From: a virus
Virus record (IMG/VR): IMGVR_UViG_3300035660_000035
Coordinates: 1 to 38,138 of that record
Strand: one strand, 5' to 3'
DNA: 38,138 nucleotides
Numbering within the stretch: position 1 is the stretch's first letter; each line of letters begins with the position of its first letter. The translations under genes and the position numbers were made by a program. Below the pieces are notes generated by a model. That model searched no databases. It was not told the DNA's origin and saw only the letters and a list, made by a program, of their open reading frames with translations. Shown here in pieces: positions 1 to 38,138 of the stretch.

Positions 1-191
1 TTTGTGATAACCCGTCTCGCAGAAACATATTGTCTTTTTGTAGAAACATTCTACAACTTTAATACCAATTTGTCAATAGGCAGAAACATATATGATAACC
101 ACAAGAAACGTATTTCGTGACAAAATGTTTATTATGAAAAACTTTGCCCCCTTTTCTTTTCCGCGCGGTCTTTCAATTGGCGATTGGTTGC
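1..191. repeat. Left copy of terminal direct repeat
   Basis: These 191 bases recur at 37948-38138. The only difference I find is A at 64 against G at 38011. The repeat covers the repressor/early-promoter control region and the first codons of the repressor gene. It fits a circular genome read past its origin, or a true short terminal redundancy. The single mismatch is seen directly; its cause (population variant or sequencing error) is unknown. Confidence 0.9.
21..118. promoter_or_regulatory. Operator array of the repressor/early-gene switch
   Basis: The octamer AGAAACAT occurs at 21-28, 42-49 and 82-89, and a variant AGAAACGT at 104-111. The start-to-start spacings are 21, 40 and 22 bp, close to multiples of two helical turns. 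The second copy lies inside a near-perfect inverted repeat at 40-54, GTAGAA-ACA-TTCTAC. The fourth lies in GAAA-CGTA-TTTC (105-116). The array sits between the divergent repressor and leftward early genes, where a CI/Cro-type protein would bind. A likely rightward promoter is TTGTCA at 70-75 with TATGAT at 91-96 (15-bp spacer, so weak). Operator function is inferred. Confidence 0.6.
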
Positions 192-547
192 GCGTCGAAC
201 GCGAAAAACGCGGTTGGTCGCAATCAGATCTCGGTCGAGCCACAGGTCTCGGAAGATCATTAATAAATAAACTAGAGAATGCCGATCAGAATACAACTCT
301 TTATAATTGCATAAATATTGCCCGTGCCTTTGACATGCCGCCTGAAGATTTGATGAGAATTGCTGGCATTCTCCCCCAAAAGCCAAATGATAATCCACTG
401 GAAAATAAGATCAAATATTTGATTTCGAAACTACCAACTGAAGAAGATAAGGAGGACGTCCTCGCCTATGTGGAACTTCGCCATCGCAGGGCCGAAGATC
501 GGGTGAGATATGAAACCGGAAAAGGATCTAAATCTACAAGGACTTAG
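92..547 (+). CDS. XRE-family HTH repressor (CI-like)
   Basis: Likely lysogeny repressor. Residues about 27-83 form an XRE helix-turn-helix domain: WLRVEREKRGWSQSDLG, then the recognition segment GLGRSLINKLENA, then a helix ending in PPEDLMRIAG. The C-terminal half is charged and helical (KYLISKLPTEEDKEDVLAYVELRH), resembling short repressors without a LexA-type peptidase, so control by RecA-stimulated self-cleavage is not expected. It is the first gene of the + strand lysogeny cluster and diverges from all early genes across an operator array. The start is uncertain: ATG at 92 has only a weak AGG 11 nt upstream, while ATGs at 125 and 134 lie nearer the domain but have no ribosome site; a leaderless start is possible. 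The family call is firm; the role is inferred from position. Confidence 0.85.
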   Translation: MITTRNVFRDKMFIMKNFAPFSFPRGLSIGDWLRVEREKRGWSQSDLGRATGLGRSLINKLENADQNTTLYNCINIARAFDMPPEDLMRIAGILPQKPNDNPLENKIKYLISKLPTEEDKEDVLAYVELRHRRAEDRVRYETGKGSKSTRT

Positions 548-1490: not shown

Positions 1491-3146
1491 ATGACCACCC
1501 CCCCTTTCCCCCCCGGCGACCAGGTGGCCGGCTACTTCCGAGATTCCGGCGGCGACGAGCAGGATCTCTCGGTCGAGCGCCAGGTGGCCGAGTTCCGCCG
1601 CTGGCTGGGCGAGAACGGCCTGCACGAAGGCCAGCTCTTCACTGACGCCGCCCGCCCGGGATCCACGGTCGTTGGCCGGGCCGGCTTCCAGGCCATGCTG
1701 CGCCACTTCCGCGCCGGCGACGCCGCCGAGAGCGGCCTGATCGTCTGGCGCTCCAACCGTTTCGGTAGAAACACCAACGAATCCCAGTTCTACAAAGCCG
1801 ACATCCGCCGCCGCGGCTACATCATCTACTCCCTGACCGACAAGATCCCCCCCGATCGCTACGGTCAGGTTATCGAATACCTGCTCGATTGGAAGGACCA
1901 GGAGTTCCTCGAGACTCTCAGCGAAGACGTCGCCTCCGGCCTGCGCCATATCGTCGAGACCTACGGCGCCATGCCCGGCACCCCACCGCGCGGTTTCCTG
2001 CGCCAACCGATCACCGTCGGCACGCGCCGCAGCGGCCAGCCCCACGTCCTGCACCGCTGGGTTCCCGACGAGACCCTGCTCCCGCTCGTCCGCCGCGCCT
2101 ACCAGATGCTCCTGGATGGCGCATCATTGATAAAAATCCAGACCGTCACCGGCCTGTATGGCTCGCTCAACTCCTGGGCCACCTTCTTCCGCAACCCGCT
2201 CTATAAAGGCGTCTTGCACTTCAAAGACCTGGTCATCGAGAACTATTGCGAGCCGGTCGTGGATCCCGTTACCTGGGAGCAGGCGCAGCGCATCCTGGAC
2301 CTGCGCGCCGGTCGCCGCCATCTCAACGCGGATGACCCGTCCCTCGACGCAGCCGAGCAGGCCCGCCGCATTGCCCAGCATCCCCGTCGCATGGCCAGCC
2401 CCTGGCTGCTCTCCGGCCTGGCCCGCTGCGCCCGCTGTGGGGCGCCGCTCAACGGCCACGTCATCCTCGATCACACCTACTACGAGTGCAGCCGCTCCGT
2501 CCGCCGCAAGGACTGCAGCGCCACCAAGATCCCCTCCGTCCCGCTCGAAGCCGCCGTGCTCGAGCAGATCCGCAAGTTGCTGGCCAGTCCTGAAGTCCTG
2601 CAGGCCTATGAGACCGATCACCTGGCCGATTACGAGCGCACCATCGGCGAATTCCCCGCCCGCCGGCAGGAGCTGGCCGCCCGCTTGGGAAATTTGCGCC
2701 GACAGATCAGCCGGCTCACCAATGCCATTATGGATCATGGCCACTCCCCCGCCCTGCTCGACAAACTCACCGCCCTCGAAACACAGGAGTATGAACTCAA
2801 TGATGAACTTGCCCAGCTCGATATCCTCCTCCGGGCCAAGCCCGAACCGCTCAGCCCTCGCCGTATCCAGCGCTTGGCTGAACATTTCGAAGTTATCCTA
2901 TACAAGGGCAGCCCGGAAGAACAGCGCAAGGCCCTGGCCGGCTGGATCCTCAAGCTGCTCGTCGAGCGCCAGGATAAACACAGCATTTTGGTCTACATGG
3001 AAGTCTACGTGCCGCCTCTCCCCGGCCCAGATCCACCCGGAGGCCATCGAAAACTAACGCAACATCCCCCCTCCGCTTGGGGGCACCTGCTCGTTGCGTT
3101 AGAATTTTCAATCCCCATCATCCGCAAGCAAAGCAACCGGCGCTAA
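1491..3146 (+). CDS. int: Large serine recombinase (phage integrase)
   Basis: Site-specific integrase of the large serine recombinase family, expected to recombine attP with a host attB. The N-terminal resolvase domain shows GYFRDSGGDEQ, with likely nucleophile Ser19, and WRSNRFGRN (86-94) as the conserved arginine motif. A recombinase domain follows (about 155-270, including NSWATFFRNPLYKG). The zinc ribbon has C313-x2-C316 and C333/C342, and a coiled coil spans about 385-450. Its DNA is visibly richer in G and C than the three genes before it, suggesting a separate origin. The last 30 residues are unlike the family and are encoded by a candidate attP (3054-3102), so the protein tail may change on integration. 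The stop codon lies in a terminator loop. No good ribosome site precedes the ATG. No excisionase is recognised in the window. Confidence 0.95.
   Translation: MTTPPFPPGDQVAGYFRDSGGDEQDLSVERQVAEFRRWLGENGLHEGQLFTDAARPGSTVVGRAGFQAMLRHFRAGDAAESGLIVWRSNRFGRNTNESQFYKADIRRRGYIIYSLTDKIPPDRYGQVIEYLLDWKDQEFLETLSEDVASGLRHIVETYGAMPGTPPRGFLRQPITVGTRRSGQPHVLHRWVPDETLLPLVRRAYQMLLDGASLIKIQTVTGLYGSLNSWATFFRNPLYKGVLHFKDLVIENYCEPVVDPVTWEQAQRILDLRAGRRHLNADDPSLDAAEQARRIAQHPRRMASPWLLSGLARCARCGAPLNGHVILDHTYYECSRSVRRKDCSATKIPSVPLEAAVLEQIRKLLASPEVLQAYETDHLADYERTIGEFPARRQELAARLGNLRRQISRLTNAIMDHGHSPALLDKLTALETQEYELNDELAQLDILLRAKPEPLSPRRIQRLAEHFEVILYKGSPEEQRKALAGWILKLLVERQDKHSILVYMEVYVPPLPGPDPPGGHRKLTQHPPSAWGHLLVALEFSIPIIRKQSNRR
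3054..3102. other. Candidate attP core with inverted repeats, inside int 3' end
   Basis: CTAACGCAAC (3054-3063) and GTTGCGTTAG (3093-3102) are perfect 10-bp inverted arms 29 bp apart. Between them CCCCC (3066-3070) and GGGGG (3079-3083) form a smaller nested stem. The 49-bp span matches the usual size of serine-integrase attP sites, which lie beside int and contain imperfect inverted repeats. A plain RNA stem-loop is the main alternative. Site function is inferred. Confidence 0.4.
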
Positions 3147-5743: not shown

Positions 5744-8700
5744 CTATTCGTAGTAAACCGCCTGCACCACGGCCCGGATGGTCAACTGCGCTTCGAGCCG
5801 GGCGGTCTTGACGGTGGCGGTTGAAATCTCGATCATGTTGTTTTCCTGCGCCGGCCGGAAGACCACATCCGTCAGCTCGTCGGTGATGTCCAACTCATAC
5901 CAGCCATTGCCAATGTCGGTCACCAGCGAGTTTAGGTCGCTGCTGCCATTGAGCTTGATCACCAGGTTCGCCAACACCAGGGTGTTGCCTCCAGTTTCCT
6001 CGAAAATGCCATAAACTGTCGTGATGACCGGTGTCACAGTGTGCGTGTGATTTGGGATGTCCACGCTATGGGTATGTGCAGGTATAGACACACTGTGGGT
6101 GTGCGCCGGATCGTCGTGTTGAGTTGGAAAGAACACGCCAGGATTACTAACCCCTGCATAGGGATCACCATCGGCAGTGACATATACCGGATAAGCAGCT
6201 GTCCCATTATGGATCCAAATTTCATGCGTATGTGCGCTACTCTCGGACGTGGGTGAAGATGACCCACCAGACGCAGACGTCAGCGTAGCAGATCCACCGC
6301 CGGATGTGGTGGCGGATGCTGATCCCACCGATTTCACCGTCGAGCGCAGCGGCTTGATCTGGAACCTGAACAGCGCCCGCGGAATGGAGGTGTATTCATC
6401 CCCCAACCAGAAACGGAAATTGGCGGCATGGTCAGCATCCATTTCGTCTCGCCAGGTCAGGGTATCCACGCTCGCCCCCAACTGCTGGTGCACCGATAGG
6501 ATCCGGCTTTCCTGCACCTGGCCTGCCAGGAAGGCATTGTCCGATACGGGCAGCCGGTCTATCGTCGAGATGATGATTCCGGTAGTATGCAAACCGATAG
6601 CATCGATGCGATTTTTCGACGTGACGATGATGAAATCATCATTCAGATCATACACAACCGCTCCATCCAGCAGCTCACGATAGACCACATGGATGGTCGT
6701 TCCAGGGAGCAGCATCTGGTTTACGTGGCCCAGGGAGAGATCGTAAAACTTTTGAGGGGCACAATTTCCCCGCAAATATTCTACTGAAGCCGTGAGCAGC
6801 ATATTAGCCGCCGCCTGGATATCCAGCGTGGAATTCGAGAGCGGCCCAATCTCCTTGAAATTGACCGGACGCTCGATCCGTCCATAAGCAGCCTCGGCCG
6901 CATTGTGTCTCAAATAATTCCAGGCAGCATTGAGGGTGTATCCGTCAGGCGGTGCGTCTGTGCAAAACTCCAGGGTCGTAACCGCTCCACCGTTCCCCGA
7001 GCCGCGTGGGATTACCCATGTGATCAGATCGGCCGCGTCGCTCTCCTCTTTCAGACTGCTGATCACCACAATTTCATCGGCTGCCTCGATGGCAACCACA
7101 TCGTTGATATGCTGCACGGCGCGTAACCCTGAAGCCGAGAAAGTGCTGGCCGGGCCGAGCCATTGCACCACCCGTCCCGCCTCGATGCGCCAATGCTCAC
7201 CAATGGCCTTGCCCACCCGCGTCAGGGCATTCAAAACGCTTTCGCCATCGAAACCAGCGTAAATCGGCGTCGAAGTAATTCCATCCTCGATCGTCCATTC
7301 AGATGTTTCCTGACTGGTCATCACCCGATTGTCCGTCCCTGAATATGCCACGGCGCAGAACAGCGAGAGATCTGGAGACCAACAGACGGATCGCCAGTAA
7401 TTATCCGCGGCACTCGTCCGGATCGTCCAGGTGATCCCATCCGGGCTGGTCATCACCCGGTTGGCTGTCCCCGAATTTGCCACGGCGCAGAATAGCGAGA
7501 GCTCCGGAGACCAGCAGACGGAGTACCAATTATTTTCCGCAGGGCTCTTCCGGATCGTCCAGGTGATCCCATCCGGGCTGGTCATCACCCGGTTACCTGT
7601 TCCCGTAATCGCCACGGCGCAGAACAGTGAAAGTCCCGGAGACCAACAGACGGAACGCCAGTCATTGTCCGCAGCGCTCGTCCGGATCGTCCAGGTGATC
7701 CCATTCGGGCTGGTCATCACCCGGTTGTCTGTCCCCGAACCCGCCACGGCGCAGAACAGCAAGAGCTCCGGAGACCAGCAGACGGAACGCCAGTCATTGT
7801 TCGCAGCGCTCGTCCGGATCGTCCAGGTGATCCCATTCGGGCTGGTCATCACCCGGTTGTTTGTCCCTGAATATGCCACGGCGCAGAACAGCGAGAGCTC
7901 CGGAGACCAGCAGACGGATAACCAATTATTATTCGCAGCGCTCGTCTGGATCGTCCAAGTGATCCCGTCCGGGCTGGTCATCACCCGGTTACCTGTTCCC
8001 GTAATCGCCACGGCGCAGAACAGCGAGAGATCCGGAGACCAGCAGACGGAGTACCAATTATTATTCGCAGCGCTCGTCCGTATCGTCCAGGTGATCCCAT
8101 CCGGGCTGGTCATCACCCGGTTGTTCGTCCCCGAACCCGCCACGGCGCAGAACAGCGAGAGATCCGGAGACCAACAGACGGAATGCCAGTCATTGTCCTC
8201 AGCGCTCGTCCGGATCGTCCAAATAATCTCACCTGGAGCTAGGGCCATGATCATTTTTGGCCCATCGAAAATTCCCACGCCGTTCGCCGTGACGATTACT
8301 TGTGCATTTCCGGCTGTCGTAATGGTCCCCACAACGGTCGCTGTCTCCACTTGATAAGTAACTCCCCAATCTCCGGGAGTAGTATCGGCAGACATGGCGG
8401 CCAGGGTAATTCCAACACAAGTATCATCAGAAATTCTAATATTCAAGGTGGGATCATTGGCGTCCTTATTTTTCTTGGTCAGAATAATATCTGTTTCGGC
8501 GCCAGTGACATCATAGATATCTGTTATCGGGACGTTGGCTAATAGAGCAGTTCTGATTTTTCCGGCGATCAAGGTGGCCGTATCGTAAAGAGCTACAGCA
8601 ACTAAAAGGGTTATAGGAGACCCTGCAATCCCTTCCACCTTTTGGAGTTTCAACTGCCCCACCGACCTATAGTTCAGTTCCCTCCCCAGGTCGTTTCCGG

Positions 8701-8998
8701 AAACTGCCACGATTGTTGAGCCATCGCCGGAGATCGTCGTCACGATCTTGTCAATGATTCCGCCGCCAAAAACCTGCAGGACGCCATCCCGATCCACATA
8801 GCGGCAGATGGCCACCAGTTTCTCGGCCAGGACGCTCTGGTTGGGGTCCGCCGCACTCACCTCGAACGAAAACTCGCCGCTCGCAGAAAGCAGGCTGGAG
8901 ATATCGAAAAAGCTGGCGCACAATGGCCCGGCGCCCAATCGAACGCCGGAGGCATTCTCAATATCAACCCAGAAATTGTGTATCTCCATGCGCAGCAC
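5744..8998 (-). CDS. Tail-tip (Tal/Gp37-like) protein with inserted 7-repeat predicted beta-propeller
   Basis: A 1084-residue baseplate protein encoded directly after Dit. The N-terminal ~250 residues (MEIHNFWVDIENASGVRLGA, SFFDISSLLSASGEFSFEV) and the part after residue 568 (DGESVLNALTRVGKAIGEHW, RIEAGRVVQWLGP, NHVNQMLLPGT-like segments) look like a siphovirus tail-associated protein of the Gp37 type, forming the tail-tip hub. Residues 261-568 are seven tandem 44-residue repeats (consensus TIRTSAANNNWYSVCWSPEL, SLFCAVAGSGTNNRVMTSPD, GITW), the count and size of a seven-bladed propeller. Near the C-terminus lie three HTH/HTHSV motifs (AHTHSVSIP, AHTHSVDIP, NHTHTV), as in metal-binding fibre shafts. 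AGGTG precedes the ATG. The hub role is inferred from order; the fold is inferred from the repeats. Confidence 0.8.
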   Translation of the reverse strand: MLRMEIHNFWVDIENASGVRLGAGPLCASFFDISSLLSASGEFSFEVSAADPNQSVLAEKLVAICRYVDRDGVLQVFGGGIIDKIVTTISGDGSTIVAVSGNDLGRELNYRSVGQLKLQKVEGIAGSPITLLVAVALYDTATLIAGKIRTALLANVPITDIYDVTGAETDIILTKKNKDANDPTLNIRISDDTCVGITLAAMSADTTPGDWGVTYQVETATVVGTITTAGNAQVIVTANGVGIFDGPKMIMALAPGEIIWTIRTSAEDNDWHSVCWSPDLSLFCAVAGSGTNNRVMTSPDGITWTIRTSAANNNWYSVCWSPDLSLFCAVAITGTGNRVMTSPDGITWTIQTSAANNNWLSVCWSPELSLFCAVAYSGTNNRVMTSPNGITWTIRTSAANNDWRSVCWSPELLLFCAVAGSGTDNRVMTSPNGITWTIRTSAADNDWRSVCWSPGLSLFCAVAITGTGNRVMTSPDGITWTIRKSPAENNWYSVCWSPELSLFCAVANSGTANRVMTSPDGITWTIRTSAADNYWRSVCWSPDLSLFCAVAYSGTDNRVMTSQETSEWTIEDGITSTPIYAGFDGESVLNALTRVGKAIGEHWRIEAGRVVQWLGPASTFSASGLRAVQHINDVVAIEAADEIVVISSLKEESDAADLITWVIPRGSGNGGAVTTLEFCTDAPPDGYTLNAAWNYLRHNAAEAAYGRIERPVNFKEIGPLSNSTLDIQAAANMLLTASVEYLRGNCAPQKFYDLSLGHVNQMLLPGTTIHVVYRELLDGAVVYDLNDDFIIVTSKNRIDAIGLHTTGIIISTIDRLPVSDNAFLAGQVQESRILSVHQQLGASVDTLTWRDEMDADHAANFRFWLGDEYTSIPRALFRFQIKPLRSTVKSVGSASATTSGGGSATLTSASGGSSSPTSESSAHTHEIWIHNGTAAYPVYVTADGDPYAGVSNPGVFFPTQHDDPAHTHSVSIPAHTHSVDIPNHTHTVTPVITTVYGIFEETGGNTLVLANLVIKLNGSSDLNSLVTDIGNGWYELDITDELTDVVFRPAQENNMIEISTATVKTARLEAQLTIRAVVQAVYYE
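7295..8218 (-). repeat. Seven tandem 132-bp coding repeats (propeller blades)
   Basis: Seven in-frame units of 132 bp (44 codons) in the tail-tip gene, differing at few positions. The segment CATCACCCGGTT of the + strand returns every 132 bp between about 7320 and 8125. Variation is concentrated at residues after SAA (NNNWY, NDWRS, DNYWR) and after CAVA (GSGTN, ITGTG, YSGTD), probably loops. The last unit degenerates after RVMTSQ. High nucleotide identity suggests recent duplication or ongoing recombination between units. Confidence 0.95.
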
Positions 8999-9019
8999 CT
9001 ATGCACAGCACCTATTCGG
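8995..9019 (-). repeat. Tandem TAGGTGCTG element at tail-tip gene start
   Basis: Read on the - strand, TAGGTGCTGTGCA is followed at once by TAGGTGCTGCGCA, which runs into the ATG of the tail-tip gene. The second copy shares 13 bases with the dispersed elements at 29813, 35053 and 35971. Here the AGGTG of the second copy also serves as the ribosome site. Confidence 0.6.
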
Positions 9020-24758: not shown

Positions 24759-24782
24759 GAGGCAAATAAATCATGGCAAGTG

Positions 24783-24856
24783 CGCCCCGGATGAGACTTG
24801 AACTCACAACCTAAAGCTTAGCAGGCTTTCGCTCTTTCCTTTTGAGCTACCGAGGC
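24783..24856 (-). tRNA. tRNA with anticodon GCU (Ser) but short variable loop
   Basis: Cloverleaf read on the - strand: acceptor GCCTCGG/CCGGGGC (7 bp, one G-U), T8 A9, D-stem GCTC/GAGC with GG in the loop, anticodon stem AAAGC/GCTTT with loop CTGCTAA, 5-nt variable loop AGGTT, T-arm GTGAG/CTCAT with loop TTCAAGT, discriminator G73. Anticodon GCU reads AGC/AGU Ser codons. Bacterial tRNA-Ser normally has a long variable arm, absent here, so charging identity is doubtful. CCA is not encoded. It lies downstream of TerL and is probably co-transcribed with it. Confidence 0.8.
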
Positions 24857-29768: not shown

Positions 29769-30169
29769 GCTTGCACCCTCGCCACTTTTGCCCGCTTCCC
29801 GCCGCGCCCATACGCAGCACCTAATCGGTAAACCCGGATCCTGTCCGGCGCTGGATTGGCAGCAGCCTCCAGCCGGCGCAGGTTCTTGACGGCTTCCGTC
29901 AGCCAGGCTGGGAGGTGGCGTGCATACTTGACCTTCTGCCCGCAAGAAATACAAATCGGCGGTAGACCTAACCGTTCACGGGTTTCGCTTCGGGCTGGTT
30001 TATAACCCTGCAGCGCGATCCGTTCGGCAAGTCCTGGATTTGGCCGGCCATCCTCCGTGAGCACGCCGCAGGCCACTGATGTCTGCAGCCAGGAGCTCAA
30101 TTCGATGTGCTTTTCCCGCAATTCCTGGACTAGCTGTACTAGCATACGCTTTTTGACTTTTTCCGTCAC
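29765..30169 (-). CDS. Unknown basic protein
   Basis: A 134-residue protein with an amphipathic start (MTEKVKKRMLVQLVQELREK), a single CxxC (ICISCGQKVKYARHLP) and a strongly basic tail (YGRGGKRAKVARVQA). It overlaps the DnaD-like gene by 4 nt. A copy of a dispersed DNA element lies in its coding sequence (29813-29829), read here as YRLGAAY. The single CxxC could pair with another subunit. No family is recognised; nucleic-acid binding is likely from charge alone. Confidence 0.7.
   Translation of the reverse strand: MTEKVKKRMLVQLVQELREKHIELSSWLQTSVACGVLTEDGRPNPGLAERIALQGYKPARSETRERLGLPPICISCGQKVKYARHLPAWLTEAVKNLRRLEAAANPAPDRIRVYRLGAAYGRGGKRAKVARVQA
29813..29829 (+). repeat. Dispersed element, 17-bp copy
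   Basis: CGCAGCACCTAATCGGT on the + strand, identical to 17 bases of the copies at 35971-35991 (same strand) and 35053-35073 (opposite strand). Confidence 0.85.
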
Positions 30170-32150: not shown

Positions 32151-33959
32151 TCAGCCCGCCTTCGTTTCTTTTGAAACGACCACGGTCTTCCCATCCAGGC
32201 CTTTGTACTCCTTCAGGCCTTTCAGGAAGGGCTGAGCCAGGTCCAACCAGTTGTCCGGGAGCTTGACGCCCCAGGTTTTCGCCACGCCCTGCAGATGCTT
32301 CGCCGTGGCCAACGGGCCATTTTTTTTCATCGGGAAATCTACAACGTAATCCAGCGCCTGGCCGGCTATCTTCTGCCTCAGCATCTCGAGCTTCTTCCCT
32401 TTGCCGGCCTTCTCGAATTCCTTATCCGGCTTTATCCGGAGCAGCGCCAGCAACGGCTCGACCTTGTCCATGCCGGCGAAGACCGGTGCAAAGATCGGCA
32501 CGGCCACCTTCTCGATGAAACTGACGCTGAGCTTCCGGTTCTCCCATTCGATATTGCTAAGCCGTTCCTGTTCTGCATCCCTGCTTTTCGTGGCGCTGCG
32601 ATCGTTCGCCTTCTTACGCTGCTCGATCAGCTTGTGGGCCGTCTTTCCGACAGCGATCGCCTGCACTGTGCAGCTATCGGTGAAGTCGTGCTTATTGCCA
32701 TACATGGAGGTTTTGTATTTCGCCTGCAGGCAGACCTCGCTACGTGCATCGAATAGCTTTTGGGCCCCGTTCTCATCCCTCCATTCCTTCTCGAGCGCAT
32801 AGGTTTCCTTCCCGTGCTCCTTTGGATCGTAGACCGTGATACTGAGTTCTTTCGATAGCCGCCGGAGCTCGGCCTGGCTCCAGGCCTTGACCTTGCGCTT
32901 GTGGCAGGCTGCGAAGGCGCAATAGTGCTGCTTGTCCATCCGGGCATAGAACGGGCAGGCCGTGCAGGCCGGCGGGTCGATCAAATGCATCAAGCGCTCG
33001 ACGTCGTTCTCTGGAGCGCCATCGGCAATCAGTTTCTGCGCAAGATCTGGCTTCCTGAGACAAAGTGCCTCGTTCCACTTCCTTAGTTTGGCACGTAACT
33101 CAGCCGTGAATTCCTGGCCGAGCGCCTTGGCTTCCTCGGCTTCACTGATCACGGGCAGCAGATCGTTCGGGAAGTTTTCTTTGCTGGTGGCCAGCGGCCA
33201 GAGCCCGACCCCTGCCTGCGGTGATTCTTGGTCTTTCCAGGAGGCCCACATCTCGACGCCTTCCGTGTTTCTTTTCAATTGGCTGTTGACGACCTCTTCG
33301 ATATCCGCATTCGGCTTGGAGAGCTGACTGGTCATCTCCTTCGCCGCTGCCTCGCCCGCCGCTCGCTGGACGGTGAGCAGCTTGCGCGCCGTCCCAACCG
33401 TCATCTCGCCGGCAGCCAATTTCTCCTGGGCCACCGGCGGCAGATCCAGCAAGCGCACCGTGCCGCGCACCGTGGCATCGTTTACGCCGAAGAATTCCCC
33501 GGCTTCTTTGGAGTTCTTGCCGAATTCATCCATGTAACGTTTCATCGCCGCAGCCTGCTCGACCGGGTTGAGGTCCTTGCGCTGAAAATTCTCGCTGATC
33601 GCCATCTCGAACATCTGCAGGTCGGTCAAATCCTGCACGTCGAGCGGCATTTCGAAGAATTTGCGGCCAGCAGCCAGCGCCTTGCGGACTGGCTCTATCA
33701 GCACCGGATGATTACCATCCAGTCCATGCTCATTCCCGATCTGGACATCTGCCAGCATCCTGAAAGCTTCCAGCCTTCGATGCCCGATGGATAACTGAAA
33801 CTTACCATCTACATTAGGGATGGGACGCCCGACCGGCACCTGCAAAAGCCCATCCCGTGCAATCGAGAACGCCAACTCCTCGATGCCGGCCGGATCATCA
33901 CTTTGGCGCGGCTGCCAGGGATTGGGCTCGATCTGATCGAGCTTGATGTTTTCGATCAT
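32151..33959 (-). CDS. ParB/Spo0J-like protein
   Basis: A 602-residue protein. The N-terminus is the ParB nucleotide-binding domain: IEPNPWQPRQ, GIEELAFSIARDGLLQVPVG, IGHRRLEAF (GHRR at 59-62, the CTP-binding motif) and ENFQRKDLNPVEQAAAMKRY. A helix-turn-helix follows (KEAGEFFGVNDATVRGTVRL). The remaining 400 residues are unlike chromosomal ParB and include a Cys/His cluster near 330-355 (ACTACPFYARMDKQHYCAFA, CHKRKVKAW). No ParA partner is seen, so simple plasmid-type partition is doubtful. Phage ParB-like proteins may act in replication or transcription. ATGA overlap with the gene upstream. Confidence 0.88.
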   Translation of the reverse strand: MIENIKLDQIEPNPWQPRQSDDPAGIEELAFSIARDGLLQVPVGRPIPNVDGKFQLSIGHRRLEAFRMLADVQIGNEHGLDGNHPVLIEPVRKALAAGRKFFEMPLDVQDLTDLQMFEMAISENFQRKDLNPVEQAAAMKRYMDEFGKNSKEAGEFFGVNDATVRGTVRLLDLPPVAQEKLAAGEMTVGTARKLLTVQRAAGEAAAKEMTSQLSKPNADIEEVVNSQLKRNTEGVEMWASWKDQESPQAGVGLWPLATSKENFPNDLLPVISEAEEAKALGQEFTAELRAKLRKWNEALCLRKPDLAQKLIADGAPENDVERLMHLIDPPACTACPFYARMDKQHYCAFAACHKRKVKAWSQAELRRLSKELSITVYDPKEHGKETYALEKEWRDENGAQKLFDARSEVCLQAKYKTSMYGNKHDFTDSCTVQAIAVGKTAHKLIEQRKKANDRSATKSRDAEQERLSNIEWENRKLSVSFIEKVAVPIFAPVFAGMDKVEPLLALLRIKPDKEFEKAGKGKKLEMLRQKIAGQALDYVVDFPMKKNGPLATAKHLQGVAKTWGVKLPDNWLDLAQPFLKGLKEYKGLDGKTVVVSKETKAG

Positions 33960-34454: not shown

Positions 34455-34841
34455 TTATGGTATCAGCGCAATTTGTGGACCGAACCGCTCTGTCCCACGC
34501 CGGCGCAGGTCTCTCGCCTTTTGTTCCATCAGCCTCGAGCGGCTCACGTATTCCCGGACAACGACCTCGATGTCCTCCATGCAGTCCGCCAGCCAGTAAC
34601 CGCCGCCTGTGCTGGAGCTGCAAACCAGGTCTGTTTCACGGATCGACTCGATGGCCTTGCGCAACGCCCGATCGTAGCGATTATTATTCGTCCGCCGCAA
34701 AGGCTCCGCCGCCTGGTAACCGAATACCCGGCTCACCAGGTCCCAGCGCCCGATCTTGTTGGCCATTCCCACGTGGCGCAGCAGGAGAATGCGCACCCGG
34801 CGGATGACCTCCTCCTGTGGATAGATGATCGTATCCATCAT
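34455..34841 (-). CDS. Winged-helix-like phage protein
   Basis: A 128-residue protein. EEVIRRVRILLLRHVGMANK and IGRWDLVSRVFGYQ form a helical start. DRALRKAIESIRETDLVCSS followed by STGGGYWLADCMEDIEVVVR is a pattern I know from phage proteins where a winged helix ends in 'S.xGGYxxAxxxED'. It is likely a DNA-binding early protein. AAGGAG is placed for the second of two adjacent ATGs (34838). Confidence 0.7.
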   Translation of the reverse strand: MMDTIIYPQEEVIRRVRILLLRHVGMANKIGRWDLVSRVFGYQAAEPLRRTNNNRYDRALRKAIESIRETDLVCSSSTGGGYWLADCMEDIEVVVREYVSRSRLMEQKARDLRRRGTERFGPQIALIP

Positions 34842-34881
34842 TTCTCCTTCTTCCTTCTGGCTCGAATGGACTTGCTTTAGG

Positions 34882-34954
34882 TAGCGGGAGGCAGATTCGA
34901 ACTGCCGACCTCCGGGTTATGGGCCCAGTGAGCTGACCTCTGCTCTATCCCGCA
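34882..34954 (-). tRNA. tRNA-Met (CAU), initiator type
   Basis: Cloverleaf on the - strand: acceptor TGCGGGA/TCCCGCT, in which positions 2-7 pair and 1-72 is a T-T mismatch. D-arm GAGC/GCTC gives an A11-U24 pair. The anticodon stem CTGGG/CCCGG has three successive G-C pairs next to loop CCCATAA. T-arm GGCAG/CTGCC with loop TTCGAAT, then A73 CC (the third base is T, not A). The unpaired 1-72, the GGG/CCC stem and A11-U24 are the classic marks of bacterial initiator tRNA, and most positions agree with E. coli tRNA-fMet as I remember it. It lies between early genes on the same strand. Confidence 0.9.
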
Positions 34955-34958
34955 TCGT

Positions 34959-35168
34959 TTACTTTCCCTTGATGCGCTCGATCTGTTTTGGGTTCAGGTC
35001 AAGATGGGGCGGCTGATAGTCGCCTCTTTGGTGGATCTCCGCGCCTGTCTTTCGACCGATTAGGTGCTGCGCACAGATTTGCTCTAATTCATGCAGTGTG
35101 TCCGCCGTCACGATAAACCAAACCTTTGTGCCGCTTTGTTTTGGGGAGGAGATGTGAATTGGCGTCAT
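34959..35168 (-). CDS. Unknown small protein
   Basis: A 69-residue protein: MTPIHISSPKQSGTKVWFIV, TADTLHELEQICAQHLIGRK, then a polar tail (DLNPKQIERIKGK). One copy of the dispersed DNA element (35053-35073) encodes its CAQHLIGR stretch. AAGG lies 10 nt before the ATG. No family recognised. Confidence 0.65.
   Translation of the reverse strand: MTPIHISSPKQSGTKVWFIVTADTLHELEQICAQHLIGRKTGAEIHQRGDYQPPHLDLNPKQIERIKGK
35053..35073 (-). repeat. Dispersed element, 21-bp copy (inverted)
   Basis: Exact reverse complement of 35971-35991 over 21 bp, and of 29813-29829 over 17 bp. It lies inside the 69-residue gene, read as QHLIG. Confidence 0.85.
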
Positions 35169-35787: not shown

Positions 35788-36204
35788 CTACTGGCCTTTA
35801 CCATGCACCGGGCAAAATGAGCAGTCGCCGATCTTCTCCAGGCAGCAGCATTGGGTGTCATCGGGATCGGGTGTAAGTGAATTGGGCTCTGGCCAGGCTA
35901 TCACCGGCGAGATAGCCGTAGGTCGAAGAGTCTCGGCCGGCTCATGCAAAGCTGCGTCGTCCTGAGCCTTTGCGCAGCACCTAATCGGTCGAAGGATTTC
36001 GCCCTTCTCGGCAACCGCATGGCCGGACGGATCGAAGCGCACCACTGCCTGGAAGTAATGGATTTCCTTTACTCTGACAAAATATTCGGCTTCCGCCACA
36101 AAAGGATTGCCCCATAGATCCCAGCCCTCGGCCAGATGTCGCGTCACCGCATCGTTCAGGCCTTCGTTGAAAGCGCATTCCAGGAGTTTATATTGATGTG
36201 CCAT
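35788..36204 (-). CDS. DUF1737-like protein with repeat-containing insert
   Basis: A 138-residue protein from the ATG at 36204 (AGGAGG 6 nt upstream). Residues 1-50 (MAHQYKLLECAFNEGLNDAV, TRHLAEGWDLWGNPFVAEAE) show the 'L..EL...V...L..GW...G.P' pattern of the DUF1737 family, usually a short stand-alone domain. Residues about 72-110 (EKGEILRPIRCCAKAQDDAA, LHEPAETLRPTAI) are encoded by a stretch holding a dispersed DNA element and look inserted. The Cys-rich end (DDTQCCCLEKIGDCSFCPVH) could bind metal. Confidence 0.65.
   Translation of the reverse strand: MAHQYKLLECAFNEGLNDAVTRHLAEGWDLWGNPFVAEAEYFVRVKEIHYFQAVVRFDPSGHAVAEKGEILRPIRCCAKAQDDAALHEPAETLRPTAISPVIAWPEPNSLTPDPDDTQCCCLEKIGDCSFCPVHGKGQ
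35971..35991 (+). repeat. Dispersed element, 21-bp copy
   Basis: TGCGCAGCACCTAATCGG with three further bases matching 35053-35073 in inverse orientation. It is flanked here by CCTGAGC on one side and TCGAAGGA on the other, which resembles the ends of a repeat common in some bacterial chromosomes (see findings). In the gene it encodes PIRCCAK. Confidence 0.8.
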
Positions 36205-37926: not shown

Positions 37927-37994
37927 TTGATGCTCCCTGCAAGGCGATTTGTGATAACCCGTCTCGCAGAAACATATTGTCTTTTTGTAGAAAC

Positions 37995-38023
37995 ATTCTA
38001 CAACTTTAATGCCAATTTGTCAA
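37995..38023 (-). promoter_or_regulatory. Leftward early promoter (also at 48-76)
   Basis: On the - strand TTGACA (38018-38023), 17-bp spacer, TAGAAT (37995-38000). The -10 is wholly inside the inverted repeat GTAGAA-ACA-TTCTAC (37987-38001), so a repressor on that site would block polymerase. The one mismatch between the terminal copies (38011 against 64) falls in the spacer. It leads into the gene at 37926 with a ~60-nt leader. Confidence 0.8.
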
Positions 38024-38038
38024 TAGGCAGAAACATAT

Positions 38039-38138
38039 ATGATAACCACAAGAAACGTATTTCGTGACAAAATGTTTATTATGAAAAACTTTGCCCCCTT
38101 TTCTTTTCCGCGCGGTCTTTCAATTGGCGATTGGTTGC
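38039..38138 (+). CDS. Partial repeat copy of the repressor gene start
   Basis: The first 33 codons of the repressor gene repeated by the end overlap and cut by the window end. Not a separate gene. Confidence 0.7.
   Translation, partial: MITTRNVFRDKMFIMKNFAPFSFPRGLSIGDWL

Follow-up and report, generated by a model that had tools for sequence, protein, structure and literature searches.

Introduction

It has long been asked why phages carry tRNAs, and several described systems bear on the question. In tRNA-dependent lysogeny, a known phage strategy, a temperate phage carries a tRNA gene of its own (PMC10865867). Other phage tRNAs have been connected with nucleases that cut tRNA. Cleavage of tRNA-fMet by VapC is described for enteric bacteria, where it falls between positions 38 and 39, and for a leptospiral VapC (PMC4105405). 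In phage tRNAs, changes in the anticodon loop tend to coincide with the targets of nucleases, and phages are reported to do without a tRNA-fMet gene, as a rule, where the anticodon of this tRNA is a VapC target (PMC10264068). Complete initiator-type genes are present in Pseudomonas phage D3 (as tRNA-Met), Stenotrophomonas phage QDWS359 (tRNA-fMet) and Mycobacterium phage Roots515 (tRNA-Met).

Here we describe a likewise complete initiator-type gene in an IMG/VR virus record of 38,138 nucleotides (IMGVR_UViG_3300035660_000035; analysed over its whole length and referred to as the window). The tRNA has C at position 33 of the anticodon loop, as does that of phage D3. The other cultured phages with initiator genes differ from this one in phage and in host, which here is probably a member of the Chloroflexota, and most of those parsed have the usual loop, some having U32.

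Results

The phage genome and its sisters

A 191-nt direct repeat at the two ends of the window (positions 1-191 and again 37948-38138; 99% identical) marks the window as a complete phage genome, circularly permuted and ~38 kb long. The genes include those for a terminase, a portal, a ParB-like protein (32151-33959, minus strand), a Cas4-like exonuclease, a DnaD-like protein, a large serine integrase (1491-3146, plus strand; phrog_95, E 4e-60) and an HTH (Cro/C1-type) repressor-like protein (92-547, plus strand). Judged by this gene set, including the integrase and the repressor, the virus is a temperate tailed phage. Three sister contigs share the ParB-like protein as a synteny marker (70% identical in two, 76% in one) and are collinear with the window where they overlap it; the integrase is 89% identical in one of them, G003. 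Defence genes searched for with PADLOC among the neighbours tested were absent, except for weak matches of the HTH protein.

The genome has several other features. A second tRNA gene, with anticodon GCU and called tRNA-Ser, lies at 24782-24856 on the minus strand; it is 75 nt long and is without the long variable arm that bacterial serine tRNAs have, and sister G002 contains a diverged copy. The motif CAGCACCTA(A/C/T)TCGG occurs four times (0 expected), at 9006-9019, 29815-29828, 35056-35069 and 35975-35988. In a sister (L359), one copy is part of an insertion that directly follows the fMet gene and a second has been inserted close to the start of the ParB-like gene; on account of these inserted copies the motif gives the impression of being mobile or of spreading, and it may be a binding site. 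A tandem repeat at 7310-8273 comprises 6-7 copies of a 132-nt (44-codon) unit within a 1084-aa ORF (5744-8998, minus strand).

The tRNA gene is of the initiator type

ARAGORN finds a tRNA-Met (CAT) gene at 34880-34954 on the minus strand, and Rfam RF00005 matches 34882-34954 with 57 bits (E 7e-10). The original prediction had described the gene, with no mention of its strand, as an initiator tRNA on the basis of T-T at 1-72, three G-C pairs in the anticodon stem and A11-U24. All three marks are present in the parsed cloverleaf, which reads TGCGGGA-TA-GAGC-AGAGGTCA-GCTC-A-CTGGG-CCCATAA-CCCGG in its 5' half and AGGTC-GGCAG-TTCGAAT-CTGCC-TCCCGCT-A-CC in its 3' half. The acceptor end has T1xT72 (U1xU72), and hence no Watson-Crick pair at 1-72, followed by G2-C71, C3-G70 and G4-C69; the D-stem carries A11-T24 (A11-U24), and positions 29-31/39-41 form three G-C pairs (GGG/CCC). 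The discriminator is A73 and CCA is not encoded (ACCT). The cloverleaf is complete, with every structural and initiator mark intact.

A survey of 9,917 CAU tRNA genes, comprising 4438 initiators and 5479 elongator Met or Ile-CAU genes, recorded A11-U24 in 4430/4438 initiators and 0/5479 other CAU tRNAs, and U1xU72 in 207/4438 and 2/5479, respectively (PMC5143459). Compared with these counts, the sequence of the gene at 34882-34954 makes its identity as a bacterial-type initiator tRNA (CAU) secure, in strong support of the assignment made originally. Gene finders label it merely tRNA-Met, which would also suit an elongator Met tRNA or a lysidine-modified Ile-CAU tRNA; we give that identity almost no credence, since it is ruled out by A11-U24, U1xU72 and GGG/CCC, marks almost exclusive to initiators.

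Gene neighbourhood and conservation

Upstream of the tRNA gene is a 69-aa ORF (34959-35168, minus strand) and downstream, starting ~40 nt after the tRNA, a 128-aa ORF (34455-34841, minus strand; phrog_2113, function not assigned). The co-directional 69-aa ORF ends in a stop codon just 4 nt ahead of the tRNA gene, a spacing that makes co-transcription probable, the tRNA then being cut out. Scans for promoters and terminators around the tRNA gene gave nothing above chance.

Sister G003 has an identical 75-nt tRNA-fMet gene in the same place. The flanks outside the tRNA are ~74% identical between the window and G003, and at that rate a crude site-independent model gives a chance of about 1e-10 for 75 identical nucleotides. 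The gene is absent at the corresponding place in sister G002, so that, as far as these genomes indicate, it is not essential to the phage group.

Shine-Dalgarno matches of 4 nt or longer were found for 25 of the 39 minus-strand genes of the window, a count that covers phage genes alone. The proposal that weak ribosome sites or leaderless mRNAs were the reason for carrying the gene finds no support in this number, which gives no sign of unusual initiation, and we rejected it.

Integration site and host lineage

At the left end of sister prophage G002, the integrase gene runs at its 3' end into a host tRNA-Glu(CTC) gene, and the junction sequence is also found inside the 3' end of the window integrase. 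The G002 tRNA-Glu and upstream host flank align with the Chloroflexota genome G391 (97% over the tRNA), and in G985, another genome of the taxonomic order to which G391 belongs, a related integrase gene adjoins tRNA-Glu(CTC). The predicted attP core of the window, TCCGCTTGGGGGCACCTGCTC (3072-3092, plus strand), lies in the 3'-terminal part of the integrase gene and, as far as ..GCAC, corresponds to the 3' end of the host tRNA-Glu(CTC). These sequences indicate that the phage very probably integrates at the 3' end of host tRNA-Glu(CTC), and its integrase appears to rebuild the host tRNA-Glu on integration. The host flank of G002 points to Chloroflexota as the host, an assignment to lineage and not to species.

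Because the predicted attP falls within the 3'-terminal part of the integrase ORF, integration would change the integrase C-terminus. Related integrases in the same taxonomic order are found near tRNA-Glu, tRNA-Arg and tRNA-Gly genes. In genome G096 (L399) the tRNA-Glu 3' end TTCGAGTCCGCTTGGGGGCACAG is tandemly repeated after the tRNA gene, as if earlier elements had integrated there. A degenerate tRNA-Leu-like sequence lies just upstream of the integrase in G003 (L375, G003:C1:23089-23156), and the start of the integrase gene is partly duplicated close by.

The presence of an integrase in a temperate phage, and the precedent of tRNA-dependent lysogeny (PMC10865867), raise the possibility that the fMet gene is a relic of an attachment site, or that it complements a host initiator broken by the prophage. 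The present integrase, however, targets tRNA-Glu and not a phage-encoded tRNA (the G002 junction, the G391 alignment and G985 agree on this), and the fMet gene, which is complete, lies ~4.7 kb away from the integrase gene when the genome is read as a circle. With attB in tRNA-Glu, the fMet gene would be neither a copy of the attachment site, the truncated form of which had been named as an outcome adverse to the original prediction, nor a rescue of a broken host initiator. We rejected both versions as very improbable.

C33 sets the phage tRNA apart from the host class

The anticodon loop of the phage tRNA (positions 32-38; 34917-34923, minus strand) is CCCATAA in place of the bacterial norm CTCATAA. 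C33 (window base 34922) thus replaces U33, a usual but non-defining feature of initiators. It is the oddest feature of the gene and had been overlooked.

We scanned 396 genomes of the class of G391 with an initiator pattern in which position 33 could be C or U, and 255 of them matched. Nearly all matching genomes have one match, and the host initiator is apparently single-copy. Position 33, counted by hand, is U in 150/150 host-class initiator genes among the matches listed, for an upper 95% bound of ~2% on C33 in the class; inheritance of C33 from the host receives no support from these 150 genes. U1xU72 is present in 30 of 40 parsed host-class genes. Since the host class has mostly U1xU72 together with U33, the phage tRNA appears to resemble it at the acceptor end and to differ from it in the loop, the comparison being with the host class and not the host species. 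The copies found in host relatives are 80-83% identical to the phage gene.

C33 in other phages and in chromosomes

C33 is not unique to the present phage; the pattern was found in 117 stretches of viral contigs. Among the rows listed from a mixed scan of viral initiator genes in IMG/VR, 5 of 80 have C33 (6%, interval 2-14%) and the other 75 keep U33. Phage initiator tRNA genes are not rare but fairly common, a frequency understated by the expectation that phages usually carry elongators. The initiator is the sole tRNA of its stretch in 46/73 C33 loci. Among cultured phages, the initiators of Pseudomonas phages D3 and BUCT566 and Janthinobacterium phage Donnerlittchen have C33, those of Stenotrophomonas phage QDWS359 and Variovorax phage VBv52 have U32 instead (loop TTCATAA), and the remainder of those parsed have the usual loop.

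Chromosomal initiators with C33 occur in Leuconostocaceae, Erysipelotrichaceae, Phycisphaerae and Patescibacteria, and in the archaeal groups DPANN and Thermoplasmata; C33 is therefore compatible with initiator function. The Leuconostocaceae, Erysipelotrichaceae, Phycisphaerae, DPANN and Thermoplasmata genes combine C33 with the GGG/CCC stem, in common with the phage gene, but they belong to other lineages and none is among the host-class genes listed.

Discussion

The reading we favour, which we hold tentatively and at somewhat less than even confidence, is that the gene encodes a functional initiator tRNA and that the phage copy stays usable when a VapC-type PIN nuclease cuts the host initiator. 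Judging from the sequence marks, conservation and placement of the gene, the tRNA would be transcribed with the other genes of its minus-strand operon; host RNase P would release it and a host enzyme would add CCA, after which it would receive methionine, be formylated and serve in translation start. The phage would keep its own initiator supply for infection or lysogeny and back up the apparently single-copy host initiator, and its C33 copy would remain usable while the host initiator was being cut in the anticodon arm. Nuclease survival is the likeliest specific benefit because there is one host initiator, the host class has U33 among the genes listed, and the phage C33 is conserved in a sister. 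PIN-domain genes number 4-22 in each of eight host relatives, with 22 in the closest, G391. The phage tRNA belongs to a VapC-cut class and has a loop base unlike that of its host, like the nuclease-evading phage tRNAs described previously (PMC10264068), and by this analogy C33 may confer resistance to initiator-specific anticodon nucleases such as VapC. The present phage departs from the trend, reported in the same study, of avoiding tRNA-fMet: it encodes one, with C33. The earlier suggestion that the gene could help to survive host tRNA cleavage thus gains indirect support from C33, while the resistance step itself is one that we infer.

The recurrence of C33 in the initiators of unrelated phages (D3, Donnerlittchen) counts for this reading, as does the finding that in many C33 loci no other tRNA accompanies the initiator. 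Against it count the chromosomal lineages that tolerate C33 with no link to defence, the absence of the gene from G002, and the retention of U33 by most of the phage initiators listed. The broader proposition, that C33 is a recurrent adaptive change in the present phage, D3 and Donnerlittchen that sustains initiation when initiator-specific nucleases destroy the host initiator, seems to us rather unlikely.

The main alternative is one of dosage, in which the tRNA simply adds to the initiator supply, a replicating phage providing many more copies than one host gene, and C33 is neutral, tolerated because an initiator acts in the P site alone. The single initiator gene of nearly all matching host-class genomes favours it, as do C33 in the chromosomal initiators of several lineages and the frequency with which an initiator is the only tRNA in its stretch of phage DNA. 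Dosage does not, however, account for C33 in unrelated phages, nor for a base found in 0/150 of the host-class genes listed yet in both gene-carrying phages of the group; we consider it somewhat less probable than nuclease survival. The gene might instead be a passenger, a host initiator gene captured and drifting under weak selection, as the sister without it and the 80-83% identity to the copies found in host relatives would allow. Weak selection accords poorly with intact structural and initiator marks throughout and with 75 nt identical between two phages that differ at roughly one in four sites of the flanks, although that identity could also stem from recent exchange between the two phages. 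We regard the passenger explanation as improbable.

An initiator tRNA is no means of codon compensation as ordinarily understood, and for that reason it isolates, within the wider question of why phages carry tRNAs, the remaining hypotheses of dosage and of escape from tRNA-cutting defences. The kind of gene is ordinary; its loop base is unusual, conserved and not that of the host class, and this yields a specific, testable hypothesis. Because the base that differs from the host class lies in the anticodon loop and the cultured phage D3 shares it, the escape idea becomes a one-base bench test.
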